Positions 19,892-39,350 of a stretch of DNA of 64,000 nucleotides are shown here, piece by piece. How positions within the stretch are numbered: position 1 is the first letter of the stretch; each line of letters opens with the position of its first letter. A model generated the notes under the pieces. It made no database searches. It saw nothing but the letters and a program-made list of their open reading frames with translations, and had not been told where the DNA came from. This DNA comes from Dissulfurirhabdus thermomarina (GTDB lineage: Bacteria > Desulfobacterota > Dissulfuribacteria > Dissulfuribacterales > Dissulfurirhabdaceae): NCBI RefSeq assembly GCF_012979235.1, contig NZ_JAATWC010000001.1, forward strand, positions 62,001-126,000. The letters run 5' to 3'. Made by a program: the position numbers and the translations under genes.

Positions 19892-20100
19892 CGGCTCTCA
19901 CCTCCCCAGCACATATCCGCTACCCGGCCAAAACTCATGGATCCACCTCCATCCCCTCCCGGGCGGGCCCGGGGGATCAAGCGACACGACAGCAATGGTC
20001 AAACCGGAAACGCTTTCCACCCACCTCCACGGAAAGGGTGAAATCACCCATGCCGCCGGGCGCCCGGGGCGTCAAGATTCGCTCAGGCCGCCGGCACTGC

Positions 20101-20231
20101 ATGGATGGCCAAGCGGGAATCGCCGAGGACAAGGCGCGACCATCGCGAGGAACGAGGCGTACTTGGGCTACGCCGCAGTGACGATGCGATGGGAAGCACC
20201 GCCGTAATTGGCGATTCCCGCGACGCCATCA
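20101..20231 (+). repeat. Dispersed MITE-like repeat, copy A
   Basis: About 131 bp: GGATGGCCAAGCGGGAATCG, then GACAAGGCGCGACCATCGCG, a central GGCGTA-N7-TACGCC palindrome, GTGACGATGCGATGGGAAGC, and the terminal CGCGACGCCATCA. It is about 90% identical to the reverse complement of the start of the copy at 37429-37624. The left end is indistinct. It lies 60 bp past the end of the minus-strand gene ending at 20290. Confidence 0.85.
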
Positions 20232-21609: not shown

Positions 21610-21972
21610 TCACTTGGCCAGGTGCCGGCGGATGGACGCCTTGAGCTCGTCGAGGTTGAAGGACTTCACGATGTAGTCGTCCGAGGCCCAGGAGGCCAGG
21701 TCCTGCTTGTACTCCGGGTAGGCGGAGCTCAGGATCACCGGGACGTCGGGCTTCTTCTCCTTCATCTGGCGCAGGACCTCGATCCCGTCCATCCCGGGCA
21801 TGTTGATGTCGAGGACCACGAGGTCGGGATGCTCGGCGTCGAAGACCTCCAGCGCCTCTTCCCCGCTCATGGCGGTGGAGACCTCGTATCCCTCTTCCTC
21901 CAGTTCCTCCCGGTAGAGGAGATGGATGCTCTCCTCGTCGTCTACCACCAGGATGCGCTTCTTTCCGCTCAT
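21610..21972 (-). CDS. Single-domain response regulator (CheY-like)
   Basis: A 120-residue stand-alone receiver domain, start MSGKKRILVVDDEESIHLLY. The phospho-acceptor Asp is in LVVLDINMPGMDG near residue 54, the Thr/Ser position is the Ser of ILSSAYP, and the conserved Lys is in IVKSFNLDELKASI. There is no output domain. Together with the downstream receiver-GGDEF gene it looks like a phosphorelay pair; the cognate kinase is not in this cluster. Confidence 0.93.
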   Translation of the reverse strand: MSGKKRILVVDDEESIHLLYREELEEEGYEVSTAMSGEEALEVFDAEHPDLVVLDINMPGMDGIEVLRQMKEKKPDVPVILSSAYPEYKQDLASWASDDYIVKSFNLDELKASIRRHLAK

Positions 21973-22029
21973 GAAACCCCCCGTTCCGTCCTAGGGATGC
22001 CGGCCGCCCCGGCGGGACGGCCGGCGCCG

Positions 22030-23031
22030 TCAATCGATCTCCATCTCGCGCAGGTACCGCGCCGCCTCCTCCGGCGGCGTGGGGTTGATGTAGAAGCCCG
22101 TCCCCCACTCGAACCCCGCGATCATGGTAAGCTTGGGCACAATCTCGATGTGCCAGTGATAGTGCTCCATGGGCGGGGTGCGAAGGGGCGCGGTGTGCAG
22201 CATGTAGTTGTACGGGACCCTGGGGAGGGCCCGGTCGAGCCGGCGCATGGTCTCGAGGAAGACCCCGGTGAGCGCCTGGAAGCCCGGCTCGTCCAGGGAC
22301 GGGAACGAGGAGGCGTGCCGCTTGGGCAGCACCCAGGTCTCGAAGGGCGCCAGCGGCGCGTAGGGACAGATGGCGATGAAGCCCTCGTTCTCGCACACCA
22401 CCCGGACGTTCTGCGAGCGCTCCTGCCGGATGATGTCGCAGTAGACGCAGCGTTCCTTGTAGTCGTAGTACTTGCGCGTCCCGTTGATCTCCTCCTGCAT
22501 CCGGTGGGGAACCACGGGGAGCGCGATGAGTTGCGAGTGGGAGTGTTCCAGCGAGGCCCCGGCCGCCCGGCCGAAGTTCTTGAAGACCATGATGTAGCGG
22601 AAACGCTGGTCCCGCTCGAGGTCCACCATGCGGTCGCGGTAGGCATGGAAGATCTGGACCACGTGGTCGTGGGGCATACCGGCCAGGGTCTGGTCGTGGT
22701 CCGGGGTCTCCACGATCACCTCGTGGGCCCCGATCCCGTTCATCTTGTCGTAGATGCCCTCGCCCTGCTTGTCGAGGTCCCCCTCGATCACCAGGGCGGG
22801 GAACTTGTTGGGGACCACCCGCACCGTCCACCCCGGGGTGTTGGGGACCCGGCCCGGGGGGCCGTAGGCCAGGACCTCGGGCGGGGTGGTGTTCTCGTTT
22901 CCCTGGCAGAGCGGGCAGAAGCCGCCCACGCGGCGCTCGGGCTGGATGACGAAGTCGGAGGGCCGCTTCCCCCGTTCCTTGGCGATGATGACCCATCGGC
23001 CGATGATGGGGTCCCTACGGAATTCTGGCAT
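22030..23031 (-). CDS. galT: Galactose-1-phosphate uridylyltransferase
   Basis: HIT-superfamily nucleotidyltransferase that exchanges UMP between UDP-glucose and galactose-1-phosphate; some relatives act on ADP/UDP-glucose in glycogen metabolism. The start MPEFRRDPIIGRWVIIAKER (333 residues) follows an AAAGGAA site. A 17-residue longer start lacks support. Zinc ligands CPLC and CVYC are present, and the active-site motif is LEHSHSQLIALP with the nucleophilic His. The GH57 gene just upstream suggests alpha-glucan turnover rather than the Leloir pathway; galK and galE are absent here. Confidence 0.93.
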   Translation of the reverse strand: MPEFRRDPIIGRWVIIAKERGKRPSDFVIQPERRVGGFCPLCQGNENTTPPEVLAYGPPGRVPNTPGWTVRVVPNKFPALVIEGDLDKQGEGIYDKMNGIGAHEVIVETPDHDQTLAGMPHDHVVQIFHAYRDRMVDLERDQRFRYIMVFKNFGRAAGASLEHSHSQLIALPVVPHRMQEEINGTRKYYDYKERCVYCDIIRQERSQNVRVVCENEGFIAICPYAPLAPFETWVLPKRHASSFPSLDEPGFQALTGVFLETMRRLDRALPRVPYNYMLHTAPLRTPPMEHYHWHIEIVPKLTMIAGFEWGTGFYINPTPPEEAARYLREMEID

Positions 23032-23130
23032 GCCGGCGGTTCCTTTCCGGGCCTTGCGCGGCGGGAGGCGGTCGACCCCCACCTTTCATATACTACCCTA
23101 AGCCGGTTCCGGGCCGAAGGTCAAACCCGG

Positions 23131-23160
23131 AAGAGACCGGCCGGGGGGCGGGGCGGCCGG
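23131..23160 (-). terminator. Candidate terminator after the GH57 gene
   Basis: On the minus strand, four bases after the GH57 stop, CCGGCCG pairs with CGGCCGG across a C/G-rich loop and TCTCTT follows. The U-tract is short, so strength is uncertain. It would separate the GH57 gene from galT, or reduce read-through. Confidence 0.45.
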
Positions 23161-23163
23161 ATC

Positions 23164-25326
23164 TCAGACCAGCCAGATCCGCCGCTCGAAGTCTTCGTCG
23201 GGGACGGTGACCACCAGGGGGCCCTCTCGGGGCCACCGGTCCAGGACCAGGCCGTCCCGGAGGAGGTCGACCCGGAAGGAGAGGCGCTCGTTCTTGGCCG
23301 CGCCCAGGAGGGCGAAGGGCAGGGCGACCTCGACGATCTCCCCCACGGCCCAGCGGATGCCCGCCACCGAGAGATCCACCCCGGCGTCGTCCAGCCGGGC
23401 CTCAGCACTCCAGCCTCCTTCCGGACCCGGCCGGATGTGGAGCGCCGCCTCGGCCTCCCCCCGCCAGGAGAGCCGAAGGGAGAGGCCGGGCTCCCAGTCG
23501 CGGAAGTCCGTGTCGGTGGGATCCAGCCGCACGTAGAAGCGCTCGAGGTCGAAACCGTAGAGGATCCGGCGGACCGGGGCCTCGCCCCGGTGCATGGCCC
23601 CCCCGAGGTCGCCCAGGGCCAGGGAGCCCGCCCCCTTCCACTCCCAGTAGTGGGTCCGCCGGCCATCCACCACCGGGTGGAGGAAGCCCTTGGGCTCCTC
23701 GGCGGGGAGGACCGGCCGGGGCCGCCGGACCGGCACCTGGACGGCGGCGGGGACGGGCCGGCCGATCCGCCGGAAGACCTCCTGGAGGTAGTGGCGGAAG
23801 AGCCGGTCGAACTCGTAGGCGTAGTCCGTCACGAACTGGTCCCCGAACCACCAGAACCAGTCGCTTCCCTCCGCCGCGAGCACCGCCTCCAGGGCCGCCT
23901 CCCGGTCCGCCTCGCCCACCTCCCCGGCGGCCAGCGCCCGGTCCAAGGCCGCCCGGGTCTCCGACAGGAGGCTCCAGGCCCGGTTCTCCTCCTCACCCCC
24001 GATCCAGATCCCGAAATCGCTGTTGATCCACGAGCCGGAATAGAGGTGGGCGATGGACCGCTCCGGGGGGTGGGCCTCCAGGTAGCCGCCCACGGTCACG
24101 GGGACGAGGTCCGGGTCGGCCTCGAGGGCGCGGTAGAGGCCCGAGAGGAAGGCTTCCCCCCCGTCGGGGTAGTATTCCCAGGGGTTCTCCCCGTCGAGGA
24201 TCACCGCCACCAGGGGCGGTTCGTCCATCTCGCGGCACCGCTCCCGGATCTCTCGGAGGCGCCCGGTGAAGTCGGCCACGGCCACCGCCGGGTCCGTCTT
24301 CTGGTAGACGAACCCGATGGCGTCGGAGAGCTCGTGGTGCCGGAAGACCATGTCCACCGAGGCCCCCTCCCATTCCGCCCGGTAGGGCCGGAAGAGGTCC
24401 AGCGGGCCGGCCCCGTCGCCGAGGGACCGAAACAGGATGCCCTCGTCGCTGGCGGCCCACCCGAAGCCCGCCTCCTGGACCAGGGGGATGATCTCCGGGG
24501 AGACGGCCCCCTCGGAGGGCCAGAGTCCCCGGGGCGGGGCCCCGAAGCACTCCTCGAAGCACCGCCGCGCCCGGACGAGCTGTTCCAGGGCGTCTTCCGG
24601 ATGTTGGAACCGGCGGGGAAGGGCGATCTCCGGCCTCGGGCGGCGCCCCGTGTCCGTGTCCACCAAGAGCGGCAGGATCGGGTGGAAGAAGGGGCTGGTG
24701 GACAGCTCCACCCGGCCCTCCTCCTGGAGGGCGCGGTAGGCCGGGATGAGGCCCGCCAGGGTCTCGAGGTGGAGGTCGAGCAGGGCCGCTTTCTCCTCCT
24801 CGGTGAAGAGGCGGCCCTTGGCGAGCAGCTCCTGGACCAGCGGGGCCTTTCGGCCGGCGAACCCAACCCACGCCAGGTTGAACCAGACCTGGAGGTCCCG
24901 CAGATCCTGGGCGGAGAAGGCGGCGACCACATCGTCCGCCCGGGCCGGATCGAATTCCCGGCCCCGCCGCTCGAGCAACTCCCGGTAGCGGGGATAGGGA
25001 TCCACCATGGTGGGCCAGTGGCAGCTGAAGAAGTGGGCCAGGACGAAGGCCCGTTCCGCCGGCCGGAGGTCCTCGGCCGGACGCCGGCTGACCTCCAGGA
25101 AGTCGTCGCTGATCCCCCGGCCGTAGGCCTCGATCTGGCGGAGGAGGGAGGGAACGAGGTTGAAGGTGACCGGCACCCCGGCGGCCGCGGCGGCGGCCGC
25201 CATGTCGGCGTAGGCCTTGACCCCGTGGAGCCGGACCCACGGCATGACCAGGCGCCCCGCCGCCGGGTCCAGGTACCGGGGCTGGTGCATGTGCCAGAGA
25301 AAGGCGACATGCAGGGGGTGGGACAT
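23164..25326 (-). CDS. Glycoside hydrolase family 57 protein
   Basis: A 720-residue GH57 alpha-glucan hydrolase/transferase. Start MSHPLHVAFLWHMHQPRYL is behind an AAGGAG site. Conserved region 1 (HMHQPRY) is at the N-terminus. GLWPSEGAVSPEIIPLVQEA near residue 265 carries the catalytic Glu. HHELSDAIGF and VILDGENPWEYYPDGG follow. The C-terminal 200 residues form a beta-rich domain, as in bacterial amylopullulanase-like GH57. There is no signal peptide, so it acts in the cytoplasm, probably on glycogen-type glucans. It is followed by galT. Confidence 0.93.
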   Translation of the reverse strand: MSHPLHVAFLWHMHQPRYLDPAAGRLVMPWVRLHGVKAYADMAAAAAAAGVPVTFNLVPSLLRQIEAYGRGISDDFLEVSRRPAEDLRPAERAFVLAHFFSCHWPTMVDPYPRYRELLERRGREFDPARADDVVAAFSAQDLRDLQVWFNLAWVGFAGRKAPLVQELLAKGRLFTEEEKAALLDLHLETLAGLIPAYRALQEEGRVELSTSPFFHPILPLLVDTDTGRRPRPEIALPRRFQHPEDALEQLVRARRCFEECFGAPPRGLWPSEGAVSPEIIPLVQEAGFGWAASDEGILFRSLGDGAGPLDLFRPYRAEWEGASVDMVFRHHELSDAIGFVYQKTDPAVAVADFTGRLREIRERCREMDEPPLVAVILDGENPWEYYPDGGEAFLSGLYRALEADPDLVPVTVGGYLEAHPPERSIAHLYSGSWINSDFGIWIGGEEENRAWSLLSETRAALDRALAAGEVGEADREAALEAVLAAEGSDWFWWFGDQFVTDYAYEFDRLFRHYLQEVFRRIGRPVPAAVQVPVRRPRPVLPAEEPKGFLHPVVDGRRTHYWEWKGAGSLALGDLGGAMHRGEAPVRRILYGFDLERFYVRLDPTDTDFRDWEPGLSLRLSWRGEAEAALHIRPGPEGGWSAEARLDDAGVDLSVAGIRWAVGEIVEVALPFALLGAAKNERLSFRVDLLRDGLVLDRWPREGPLVVTVPDEDFERRIWLV

Positions 25327-25380
25327 GGGACGGCGCTCCTTCCGCCGGGGGACGTGGCGCCGACCGGCCCCGGGGCCGGT

Positions 25381-25553
25381 CATGTCACTGACGGCGTTGC
25401 AATAAAGTCGCGGGCTGCTTCGGTGCTTCGGATGCCCTCGTCATTGCGGCGTACTTAAAGTACGCCTCATTCCTCGACATCCTCGCGCCGTGCATTCGGC
25501 GATCTTTGCTGGGCCATCACTCAGAGGCCTTTTTACGACGCCATCATGTCACT
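25381..25553 (-). repeat. Dispersed MITE-like repeat, copy B, with flanking direct repeats
   Basis: The element (about 25390-25544) has inverted ends, TGACGGCGTTGCAA on the left and, read inward from the right, TGATGGCGTCGTAA. Its centre is a perfect 19-bp palindrome GGCGTACTTAAAGTACGCC (25448-25466). The 9-mer CATGTCACT occurs at 25381-25389 and again at 25545-25553, as expected of a target-site duplication. It fills the gap between the GH57 start and the dksA stop, so it may act as a terminator for dksA. Confidence 0.8.
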
Positions 25554-25560
25554 TTCGGGA

Positions 25561-25923
25561 TCAAAGGCCCTTGGCCTTCTCTTCCTGCTCCTGCTTGGAC
25601 TTGCACTCGATGCAGAGGGTGGTGACGGGCCGGGCCTCGAGCCGCTTGAAGCCGATCTCTTCCTCGCACTCCTCGCAGATCCCGTAGGTCCCGTCTTCGA
25701 TCCGTTCCAGGGCCTTCTGGATCTTGCGGATGAGCTTCCGCTCCCTGTCGCGGATCCGCAGCTCGAAGTTCCGGTCGGACTCCACGGTGGCCCGGTCGGT
25801 GGGATCCGGGAACCGGTCGTCCTGATCGGTCATCTCCTCGAGGGTCTTGTCCGCCTCCCCCAGGAGCTCCGCGAGCTTCTCCTCCAGCAACCGGCGGAAG
25901 TACTCCAACTGCTCCCTTTCCAT
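25561..25923 (-). CDS. dksA: RNA polymerase-binding transcription factor DksA
   Basis: Binds the RNA polymerase secondary channel and works with ppGpp in the stringent response. The 120-residue product has the coiled coil (about residues 5-75), the tip Asp pair near TDQDDRFPDP, and a four-Cys zinc finger ICEECEEEIG plus LCIECKSKQE. A strong AGGAGGATAACG site precedes the ATG. It is the last gene of the rpoZ-dnaJ-moaC-dksA run, 39 bp after moaC. It sits just in front of repeat copy B. Confidence 0.95.
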   Translation of the reverse strand: MEREQLEYFRRLLEEKLAELLGEADKTLEEMTDQDDRFPDPTDRATVESDRNFELRIRDRERKLIRKIQKALERIEDGTYGICEECEEEIGFKRLEARPVTTLCIECKSKQEQEEKAKGL

Positions 25924-25962
25924 GTGCGTTATCCTCCTAGTGGCCCCCGCGGGGCGCCCTCC

Positions 25963-26436
25963 TCACCGCTCCCAGTCGCCGCTCTTGCCGCCGGACTTCC
26001 GGACCAGGTGGACCGTCTCGATGGTCATGCCCTTGTCCACGGACTTGCACATGTCGTAGATGGCGAGGGCGGCCACGGACACCGCCGTGAGGGCCTCCAT
26101 CTCGACCCCGGTGGCGGCCCGGGTCCGCACCCGCGCCTCCACCTCCACGGCGTGCTCTCCGGCCAGGGCCTCGAAGTGGACCTCCACCGCCTCCACGGGC
26201 AGGGGGTGGCAGAGGGGGATGAGCTGGTCCACCCGCTTGGCGGCCATGATGCCCGCCACCCGCGCCACGGCCAGGACGTCTCCCTTGGGGATCTCGCCCC
26301 GCACCAAGAGCTCGAAGGCCCGCTCCCCGAGCCGGACCCGCCCCCGGGCCACGGCCTCGCGCACCGTGGCGGGCTTGCCCGAGACGTCCACCATCCGGGC
26401 CTGGCCCTGGGCGTCGATGTGGGTGAACGCGGTCAT
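25963..26436 (-). CDS. moaC: Cyclic pyranopterin monophosphate synthase
   Basis: Second step of molybdopterin cofactor synthesis. The 157-residue product shows the MoaC motifs MVDVSGKPATVREAVARG, AGIMAAKRVDQLIPLCHPLP and ATGVEMEALTAVSVAALAIY, with catalytic Lys in DMCKSVDKGM. Residue VRKSGGKSGDW closes the active site. It is placed between dnaJ (6 bp) and dksA. No other moa genes are in the window. Confidence 0.97.
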   Translation of the reverse strand: MTAFTHIDAQGQARMVDVSGKPATVREAVARGRVRLGERAFELLVRGEIPKGDVLAVARVAGIMAAKRVDQLIPLCHPLPVEAVEVHFEALAGEHAVEVEARVRTRAATGVEMEALTAVSVAALAIYDMCKSVDKGMTIETVHLVRKSGGKSGDWER

Positions 26437-26442
26437 GATCCC

Positions 26443-27552
26443 CTACCGCCCGCTCCCCGCGTGGAAGATCTTGCGGAAGAAGCCGCCCTCGTCCTTCTCC
26501 TTCTCGATCCGATCGAACTCCTCCAGGAGCTCCCGCTGGCGGTCGGTGAGCCGGGTGGGGGTCACCACCGTCACCTCCACCACCTGGTCCCCGGTGCCGA
26601 ACCCCCTGAGGTCGGGGGCCCCGAGGCCCTTGAGCCGGAAGACGTCGCCGGTCTGGGTCCCGGCCGGGATGGAGAGGGCCTCCGTCCCGTCCAGGGTCGG
26701 GACCTCCAGGTCGGCCCCGAGGGCGGCCTGGACCACGGAGACCGGCAGCCGGCAGAAGACGTCCCGCCCCCGCCGCTCGAAGATGTCGTGGGGCTTCACG
26801 TGGATGACGATGTAGAGGTCGCCCGGCGGCCCCCCGCGAAGCCCGCCCTCGCCCTCGCCCCGGAGGCGGAGCCGGGAGCCGGTGTCCACGCCGGCCGGGA
26901 TCCGGACGGCCACCTTCCGGCGCCGGGTCACCCGGCCCTCGCCGCGGCAGGTGCGGCACGGGTCGAGAACCGCGAACCCCCGCCCCTGGCACCCCGGGCA
27001 TGTGGAGGCCACCCGGAAGAAGCCCTCGGTCCGGACCACCTGGCCCCGGCCGCCGCAGAGGCGGCAGACGGACTTCCGGCTCTCCGCGCCCATCCCGGTG
27101 CCGTTACAGTCCGGGCACGTCTCGCGCCGGGAGAGGGAGACCTCGGTCTCGGCCCCCCGGACCGCGTCGCGGAAGGAGACCTGGAGGTCGTAGCGGAGGT
27201 CGGCGCCCGGCTCGGGACCCGTCCCCGCCCGGCCGCCCGGGCGGTGGGAGAAGCCGAAGAAGTCCTCGAAGATCTCGCTGAAGGCGCTGAAGATGTCGTC
27301 GTAGCCGCCGAAGCCATGGAAGCCGGTGCCGGCCACCCCCTCGTGGCCGTGGAGGTCGTAGGCCCGGCGCTTGTCCGGATCGCGGAGCACCTCGTAGGCC
27401 TCCGCCGCCTCCTTGAACCGCTCCTCGGCCTCCTTGTCGCCGGGGTTCCGGTCGGGATGGTACTTGAGCGCCAGGGCCCGGTAGGCCTTCTTGATCTCCT
27501 CGGCGGAGGCCGTCCGGGCGACGCCGAGTATCTCGTAGTAGTCGCGCTTCAT
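26443..27552 (-). CDS. dnaJ: Type I DnaJ (Hsp40) co-chaperone
   Basis: Stimulates DnaK ATPase and delivers substrates. The 369-residue product has the J domain with [19 protein letters not shown], a G/F-rich stretch with alternating Phe ([20 protein letters not shown]), and four CxxCxGxG zinc repeats ([32 protein letters not shown]). A C-terminal substrate domain completes the protein. dnaK and grpE are not here. It follows rpoZ by 7 bp. Confidence 0.96.
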
Positions 27553-27559
27553 GGCCGGC

Positions 27560-27880
27560 TCAGGCCGGGGTTCCCTCCGGCGCCGTCCCGGCGGCGGCCG
27601 GGGCCTCGGGCGCGGCCTCGCCCTCGGGCAGCTCCACGGGGGCCTCCAGGGTCTTGATGGCCTGGCGCTCCTCGGCCTCCCGGGCCAGCTCGTCGAGGTT
27701 GTCGAAGCGGACCTTGCCGGCGGCGATCTCCCGGAGGGCCACCACGATCTCCTTGTTCTTGCATCGGACCAGGGGCTCGGCCCCCTTGCGCAACTGCTTC
27801 ACCCTCTCGATGGCCAGGTGCACCAGCTCGAAACGGTTGGAGACGTGCCTCAGGCAATCCTCGACGGTGACTCGTGCCAT
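27560..27880 (-). CDS. rpoZ: RNA polymerase omega subunit
   Basis: Assembly subunit of RNA polymerase that binds the beta' C-terminus. The start [20 protein letters not shown] follows GGAGGGAAAA. The core ends with [15 protein letters not shown] near residue 58. A Glu/Ala/Pro-rich tail of about 45 residues extends the 106-residue chain beyond the usual size. It heads the operon with dnaJ, moaC and dksA, a mix of transcription and proteostasis functions. Confidence 0.93.
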
Positions 27881-37428: not shown

Positions 37429-37624
37429 TGATGGCGTCGCGGGAATCGCCAATCACAGCGGTGCTTCCCATCGCATCGTCACTGCGGCGTATCCGGAGTA
37501 CGCCTCGTTCCCCGCGATGGTCGCGCCTTGTCCTTGGTGATTCCCGCTGATCCATCATCAGCGTCGCGCATCGGAGACCTTTGCCGGGCCATCCACCCGG
37601 AGGACTTTTTTTGCGAGGCCGTCA
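37429..37624 (-). repeat. Dispersed MITE-like repeat, copy C
   Basis: A 196-bp element, the longest copy. The left end reads TGATGGCGTCGCGGGAATCG and the right end, read inward, TGACGGCCTCGCAAAAAAAG, so the ends are imperfect inverted repeats. Internally it contains GGCGTA-N7-TACGCC and the reverse complement of GACAAGGCGCGACCATCGCG. It fills the whole gap from the gyrB stop to one base before the DUF6485 start codon, so that gene's ribosome binding site (GCGAGG) lies inside the repeat. Confidence 0.85.
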
Positions 37625-39208: not shown

Positions 39209-39350
39209 TGGCCTCGTAAGTGGATGGCTCAGCGGGAATCGCCAAGGACAAGGCGCGACCGTCGCGGGGAACGAGGCGTCGCCGGGGACCGCGGGGAGCC
39301 CCGAGGGGCTTGAAGCACCACCGTCATCGGCGATTGTCGCGACGCCACCA
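39209..39350 (+). repeat. Dispersed MITE-like repeat, copy D
   Basis: About 142 bp: TGGCCTCGTAAGTGGATGGC, AGCGGGAATCGCCAAGGACA, AGGCGCGACCGTCGCGGGGA, and terminal TCGGCGATTGTCGCGACGCC. The central palindrome has drifted to a GGGGAGCCCCGAGGGGCT-like segment. Orientation matches copy A. It occupies the gap between the rimO start and the panD stop. Confidence 0.8.

Follow-up and report, generated by a model that had tools for sequence, protein, structure and literature searches.

A MITE-like element between dksA and a GH57-family gene of Dissulfurirhabdus thermomarina, with related hairpin elements across Desulfobacterota

Dispersed intergenic hairpins, like the ones reported here, are known from REP/RAYT systems. 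As described in the accessible part of PMC10969869, bacterial MITEs such as the Correia element of Neisseria and QMITE2 of Coxiella are short, have inverted ends and occur in many intergenic copies, and the present element is likewise. The likeness extends to flanking direct repeats that are kept in the younger copies, a stable hairpin and a relative AT richness (PMC10969869, in the part available). The Chunjie MITE of Geobacter uraniireducens is likewise a MITE found in an operon, with most of its copies being intergenic, and has a length of 178–235 bp versus 156 bp here, both being compared by description only (same part of PMC10969869). Geobacter metallireducens carries a 24-copy family of a ‘short RNA element’ with the centre GRCGTAGCGCTGCTACGCC, according to the accessible part of PMC2700814. 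A description of the present family was not found in the open-licence literature searched (main texts, without supplements), and the terms ‘transpos’ and ‘insertion sequence’ are absent from the available parts of the D. thermomarina paper PMC7463578 and of PMC7478628.

The window, i.e. the whole stretch of 64,000 nucleotides that was analysed, lies in contig 1 of the D. thermomarina SH388T genome (2,461,349 bases in 34 contigs). Copy B of the family is complete, with 156 bp on the + strand (25390–25545). It covers model positions 1–156 with 125.5 bits and an E-value of 4.4e-38 in the window, a score to be read knowing that copy B is itself among the 25 copies behind the sequence model. Based on the direct repeat at its borders, the duplications across the family and the element-free loci of relatives, copy B is very probably a MITE-type transposon, non-coding and non-autonomous, that was inserted between dksA and a GH57-family gene. 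The MITE features found are a short length without a transposase gene, common terminal inverted repeats (TIRs), target duplications and a high dispersed copy number. The coding capacity of the 156 bp is at most 52 codons, and the G+C content of the element is 58%, compared to 71% for the window.

The left TIR, GACGGCGTTGCAATAAAG, is located at 25390–25407 (+ strand) as read from the sequence, with GATGGCGTCGCAAAAAG as its consensus. The right (outer) TIR, supported by the sequence and the copy alignment, lies on the − strand at 25529–25545 and reads CTTTTTACGACGCCATC on the + strand. The ends of copy B are thus inverted, as had been noted before, though imperfectly (GACGGCGTTGC... / ...ACGACGCCATC). 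An inner TIR-like motif, CTTTGCTGGGCCATC (25504–25518, − strand), was recognised by eye about 27 bp inward of the right end; in many copies of other organisms, again judged by eye, this position holds a sequence that closely matches the left end in inverted orientation. The conserved hairpin core TCGTCATTGCGGCGTAC...GTACGCCTCATTCCTCG spans 25438–25476 (+ strand), as delimited by cross-genome core searches and a structure alignment, and a perfect central 19-bp palindrome, GGCGTACTTAAAGTACGCC, is found at 25448–25466. Another perfect palindrome of 20 bp, GACCGGCCCCGGGGCCGGTC, at 25362–25381 of the window, abuts the left target duplication, and the element may have been inserted beside a hairpin that was already there.

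The initial annotation described 9-bp direct repeats flanking copy B. These are exact at both places: CATGTCACT occurs at 25381–25389 and 25545–25553, its only two exact matches on both strands of the 64 kb, with an expected count of 0.06 and two occurrences in 0 of 100 shuffles. The full direct repeat measures 10 bp (TCATGTCACT, 25380–25389 and 25544–25553), but the duplication proper is 8 bp. As identity among the aligned copies starts at GA(T/C)GG and ends at CC(A/G)TC, the element is delimited to 25390–25545 and the target-site duplication to ATGTCACT, on the left at 25382–25389 and on the right at 25546–25553, in agreement with both the sequence and the boundary-repeat test described below. 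Judged from the sequence, the extra C of the 9-bp repeat and the TC of the 10-bp repeat are the final letters of the element, to which the left flank happens to be identical.

For the boundary test, the end of the left flank was compared to the start of the right flank in 65 copies, with flanks paired across different copies as the control. The set consists of 25 of 30 fetched copies and 40 copies picked from 139 model hits (near-full length or two neighbouring halves). Five copies in which an end was absent or displaced (L011, L015, L020, L027 and L028) were left out of both this test and alignment A1, and the ends of L135–L137, L139 and L140 were extrapolated, so duplications in these copies can be masked. 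An exact boundary repeat of at least 6 bp was observed in 16 of the 65 copies, compared to 0.39 expected. The repeats differ from site to site, e.g. AAGACG (L005), AATCTT (L007), AAAGAT (L009), AACCCAT (L016) and AACCTGT (L023). Mean flank identity is highest at the 6-bp register, with 45.4% versus 28.5% for mismatched pairs. As points against transposition, 49 of the 65 have no exact boundary repeat of at least 6 bp, and the duplication length varies from 6 to 8 bp.

The copies measure 140–165 bp in 52 cases, the remaining 13 ranging from 132 to 231 bp. Among these 52 (the 13 of other lengths being omitted from the divergence test), flank likeness climbs with identity to the consensus (Spearman 0.47, p = 0.0004). 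A likeness of 83% or more between the two flanks, taken over 6–8 letters, is present in 15 of the 35 copies with a consensus identity of at least 80% versus 2 of the 17 others, with a null of 1.2%. The footprint of transposition proposed in the initial annotation is therefore supported, both by the number of boundary repeats and by their better preservation in less diverged copies. Alternatively, a dispersed repeat could have been spread by recombination or segment duplication, CATGTCACT standing on both sides of copy B by luck. The 49 copies without a repeat would fit this explanation, as with over 100 copies a single long match might be a coincidence. However, the excess of boundary repeats (also 31 of 86 versus 0.8 expected for copies elsewhere), duplications that decay with divergence and differ per site, and an identity between copies that ends at GATGG and CCATC make such a coincidence extremely unlikely.

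Copy B had also been suggested as possibly the youngest or most active copy, with its central palindrome being perfect only there. It is indeed the sole carrier of a perfect 8-bp repeat among the 52 copies, but ranks third of the 52 by consensus identity (0.904). On its sequence, copy B fits as one among the younger insertions, not thereby the youngest, and no sign of its being active was seen. Similarly, the 19-bp palindrome is perfect in copy B but not only there: among the 65 copies, palindromes of 19 bp in L117, 18 bp in L022 and 29 bp in L120 (a diverged subfamily) were found, so it is no mark of copy B alone.

When the region was first used as a query against the D. thermomarina genome, 105 candidates were obtained, 40 of them as scored matches. 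The 25-copy sequence model, for which 150 of 1957 first-look candidates were scored, gave at least 139 hits. When neighbouring hits on the same strand are merged, the 139 model hits correspond to 121–123 places in the 2.46-Mb genome. TIR-like sites with at most 3 mismatches number 244 in the genome, compared to 21 for the reversed pattern used as a control, and the consensus inverted ends common to the copies are GATGGCGTCGCAAAAAG and CTTTTTACGAGGCCATC. The window itself holds three more related copies: two partial ones on the − strand at 20095–20230 (model 1–137) and 39210–39348 (model 2–140), and one in two segments on the + strand at 37430–37622 (model 1–130 and 95–155).

Composite copies of about 226–253 bp also occur, made of the element's left half fused to a second subfamily (GATGGCGTCGCGAGAATC...). 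Since a similar join is found at three places, L131 (G000:C1:304492-304717), L132 (G000:C9:81488-81718) and L100 (G000:C1:679000-679252), it appears that the chimera spread as such. Long G+C-rich flanks accompany another dispersed repeat, GGCGTTACTTTTCTTTGCGTGCCCAAAGAAAAGTAACCAAAAGAAAGGGC, which is located between element copies at L092 (G000:C2:144450-145300) and L099 (G000:C1:378300-379400). At L091 (G000:C5:74200-75100), two copies about 300 bp apart flank a short gene region.

Both neighbours of copy B, named as in the initial annotation, are encoded on the − strand: dksA (25561–25923) is the transcriptionally upstream neighbour and the GH57-family gene (23164–25326) the downstream one. 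The gap between them is 234 bp in the window. From the sequence, the GH57 gene likely starts at 25326, with CTCCTT (AAGGAG) at 25336–25341. Long open frames on the + strand, antisense to the genes, end within the element (21622–25458) or start in the right duplication (25546–27657); these are probably a mere product of the high G+C content.

The locus was compared to 40 relatives from other families of the same order, in 38 of which a dksA match was found and for which 29 loci were examined. The order dnaJ-moaC-dksA-GH57 recurs in many relatives. In 17 of the 29 loci, the GH57 start falls within −14 to +33 bp of the last base of the dksA stop codon, leaving no room for the element, while the other 12 have no GH57 match beside dksA and are hence uninformative on the element. 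As the element is missing between the same genes in these 17 loci, the insertion of copy B is lineage-specific. A site without the element in relatives had been predicted, and in a coarse form, i.e. at the level of gene order, this prediction holds for the 17 of 29 loci that are of the informative type.

Since a transposase gene would not fit within the element, it must have been moved in trans, and its ends together with the duplication indicate an enzyme making a staggered cut. A putative transposase would recognise the inverted ends GATGGCGTCGCAAAAAG and CTTTTTACGAGGCCATC and move the element, which would be inserted by a staggered cut into the dksA-GH57 spacer. Repair of the stagger would then give rise to the 8-bp duplication ATGTCACT. 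By a simple scan, neither a promoter-like nor a terminator-like site was found on the strand of the element that is transcribed with dksA and GH57, and the opposite strand has two terminator-like sites compared to 0.3 expected. As transcribed, the element strand folds into a single long hairpin (−67.3 kcal/mol, z −5.2). With no terminator-like site on the transcribed strand, transcription is expected to read through, and the element would be present as an RNA hairpin in the transcript. The effect on the neighbouring genes is probably small. Taken singly, copy B is an ordinary MITE insertion.

The transposase search in the D. thermomarina genome covered three families (DDE_Tnp_1, Y1_Tnp and rve). 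No DDE_Tnp_1 match was found in this genome and no Y1_Tnp (PF01797) match at E 0.001, while 5 of 14 control genomes matched the latter. One rve gene is present, whose inverted repeats are unrelated to the element ends; we take this gene to be IS30-like. An autonomous partner with matching ends was not found among these three families in the own genome nor among the restricted number of long TIR pairs considered in other genomes, the pairs being matched by eye among the matches listed (own genome; G034).

Several of these pairs were rejected as a partner. The 1.05-kb TIR pair of genome G004 (L151, in G004:C1:1297652-1298703) is a copy of the family that contains a degraded transposase remnant, presumably IS481-like from its protein sequence. 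This insert is bordered by TAGCCAT on both sides, and we read it as having been inserted into the element rather than being the source of the element. Five further stretches with the G004 TIRs gave no similar pair. The 1.47-kb pair of G034 (L285) encloses a host gene, which we assume to be rpsB, and the genes enclosed by the pairs L187, L243, L267 and L275 were taken for host genes as well. In 114 of 120 loci, 17 lone TIRs were found, and a nearby longest ORF could be assigned to 16 of these. Of the 16 ORFs, 10 were scanned with Pfam: eight are host enzymes, one is a Y1_Tnp (L248) and the last had no match. One representative copy (L204) had no match in the plasmid and phage collections.

A REP-like hairpin that is moved in single-stranded form by a Y1 (RAYT-type) transposase would fit the Y1_Tnp gene of L248, which in one other genome is separated from a lone end by 1.6 kb, as well as the strong hairpin on both strands (z −5.2 and −4.2) and the covarying core pairs. 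However, the 6–8 bp duplications at the ends argue against such a mechanism, since single-strand Y1 transposition, to our knowledge, makes no target duplications. Together with the Y1_Tnp result for the own genome, this renders the single-strand mechanism very unlikely, leaving a MITE moved in trans as the preferred explanation.

Outside D. thermomarina, the core is found with other arms. It occurs in 13 of 41 genomes of the order, including that of D. thermomarina, at E 0.001. In one genus of the order, the ends are TGATTCCGCTGAAAAT and duplications ATTAAT (L065), ACGTAT (L090) and ATTTGAT (L082) were recognised by eye. In a phylum-wide sample, the core is present in 107 of 395 genomes and 68 of 246 genera at E 1e-6, with an identity of mostly about 76–97% among the matches listed. 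A pattern scan of named genomes yielded at least 120 stretches with the core. Of the 80 that were listed, 10 come from three assemblies with the label Nitrospirae, and the remaining 70 are named after Desulfobacterota groups, ‘Deltaproteobacteria’ or Proteobacteria/Pseudomonadota. Nearly all genomes in the pattern scan are metagenome assemblies, so misbinning can explain some of these labels.

In eight aligned groups, the usual plan, by eye, is GA(C/T)GGCTTCGTAAAAAG, arm, core, arm and CTTTTTACGAAGCCGTC. Many copies add a tail of about 30 bp with a second end-like motif, and the duplication then lies outside the outer motif (also by eye). In copies elsewhere, an exact 6-bp repeat directly after a TC of the right region was found in 31 of 86 cases, compared to 0.8 expected. 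These 86 remain from 123 core matches after 37 were dropped that were too near a contig end or in which no left end could be recognised. The 31 repeats start with A in 28 cases and end with T in all 31 (A....T). As a one-base shift was permitted in this test, the duplication length is 6 to 7 bp.

Ends of the GATGGCTTCGTAAAAAG type followed by a quite different interior were seen at L198, L199, L213, L251, L252 and L261, and other short elements thus seem to share the same type of ends. In one Desulfobacterales MAG, L170, L199 and L221 carry an identical extra insert of about 50 bp beside the core, CCCGGTTGAATGCCGC...GGATTCAACCGG, which is itself an inverted repeat.

The structure of the core was analysed with alignment A2, for which 44 loci were chosen by hand and 35 counted. 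L070 (pattern mismatch) and eight odd-armed loci (L172, L175, L186, L202, L208, L212, L226 and L239) were left out, and this hand selection favours the structure. In the hairpin as specified by the analyst, 86% of the cells in the 35 sequences are paired. Two-sided changes are observed in 10 of the 21 pairs, compared to a mean of 5.2 in shuffled and at most 7 in slid versions, and in 46 cells, compared to 11.1 shuffled and at most 15 slid. Two of the 21 specified pairs are unpaired in 30 and 31 of the 35 sequences. The innermost stem GGCGTAC/GTACGCC is almost unvarying, and the adjoining internal loop (TCATTGC/TCATTCC) is nearly invariant. The shuffles retain the relatedness of the sequences and a paired renewal of inverted ends mimics covariation, so these counts do not prove an RNA. 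Within the own genome, RNAalifold on 25 copies predicted 25 pairs, none of them with a two-sided change; the structure argument therefore depends on the cross-species set. Rfam 15 gave 0 matches in the window, and the six matches around the element up to E 10 are all far under the gathering scores.

Conservation of this kind could also be explained by a resident functional unit, such as a small RNA or an RNA processing site, that is kept by selection and for which mobility would be ancient and secondary. The presence of the core in 107 of the 395 phylum genomes at the identities given above, as well as the 10 of 21 hairpin pairs changed on both sides in the 35 chosen sequences, are in line with this explanation. 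As the copies are found at many places, the insertion of copy B is lineage-specific and the 25 pairs predicted within the genome show no two-sided change, we consider such a unit unlikely and retain the MITE insertion as the explanation of copy B.

A broader proposal, which we put forward tentatively and with less than even confidence, is that the MITE superfamily of copy B spans the phylum and reaches Nitrospirota, with outer arms that vary between lineages and a kept hairpin core of 39 bp. This core might be the signal for recognition or strand processing in an undescribed transposition system (right end of two tandem ends, 6-bp A....T target). Alternatively, it might be a structured RNA, carried by the element to the borders of genes. 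If true, the nearly invariant internal loop of the core would have been preserved while compensatory changes arose around it. As a family, these elements look like a large group of mobile hairpins found throughout Desulfobacterota, with a defined 6-bp A....T duplication. Conserved core and duplication together offer a handle on the responsible transposase and on the effects of hairpins on transcripts like that of dksA-GH57.

Compared to REP/RAYT systems, the element differs by its target duplications and by a genome in which Y1_Tnp gave no match. The G. metallireducens short RNA element, as far as the accessible part of PMC2700814 describes it, is likewise intergenic and multicopy, is present in several related genomes and has the palindrome GRCGTA...TACGCC. 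In eight phylum loci with this palindrome (at most 1 mismatch), which are candidate members of that family, the arms differ by eye from those of the element. On this evidence, the G. metallireducens element has the same design but appears to be a different family. Finally, the bacterial MITE examples in the available part of PMC10969869 are described within one species or genus, whereas the core reported here is phylum-wide. With this phylum-wide core and its missing partner, the family deserves a look.
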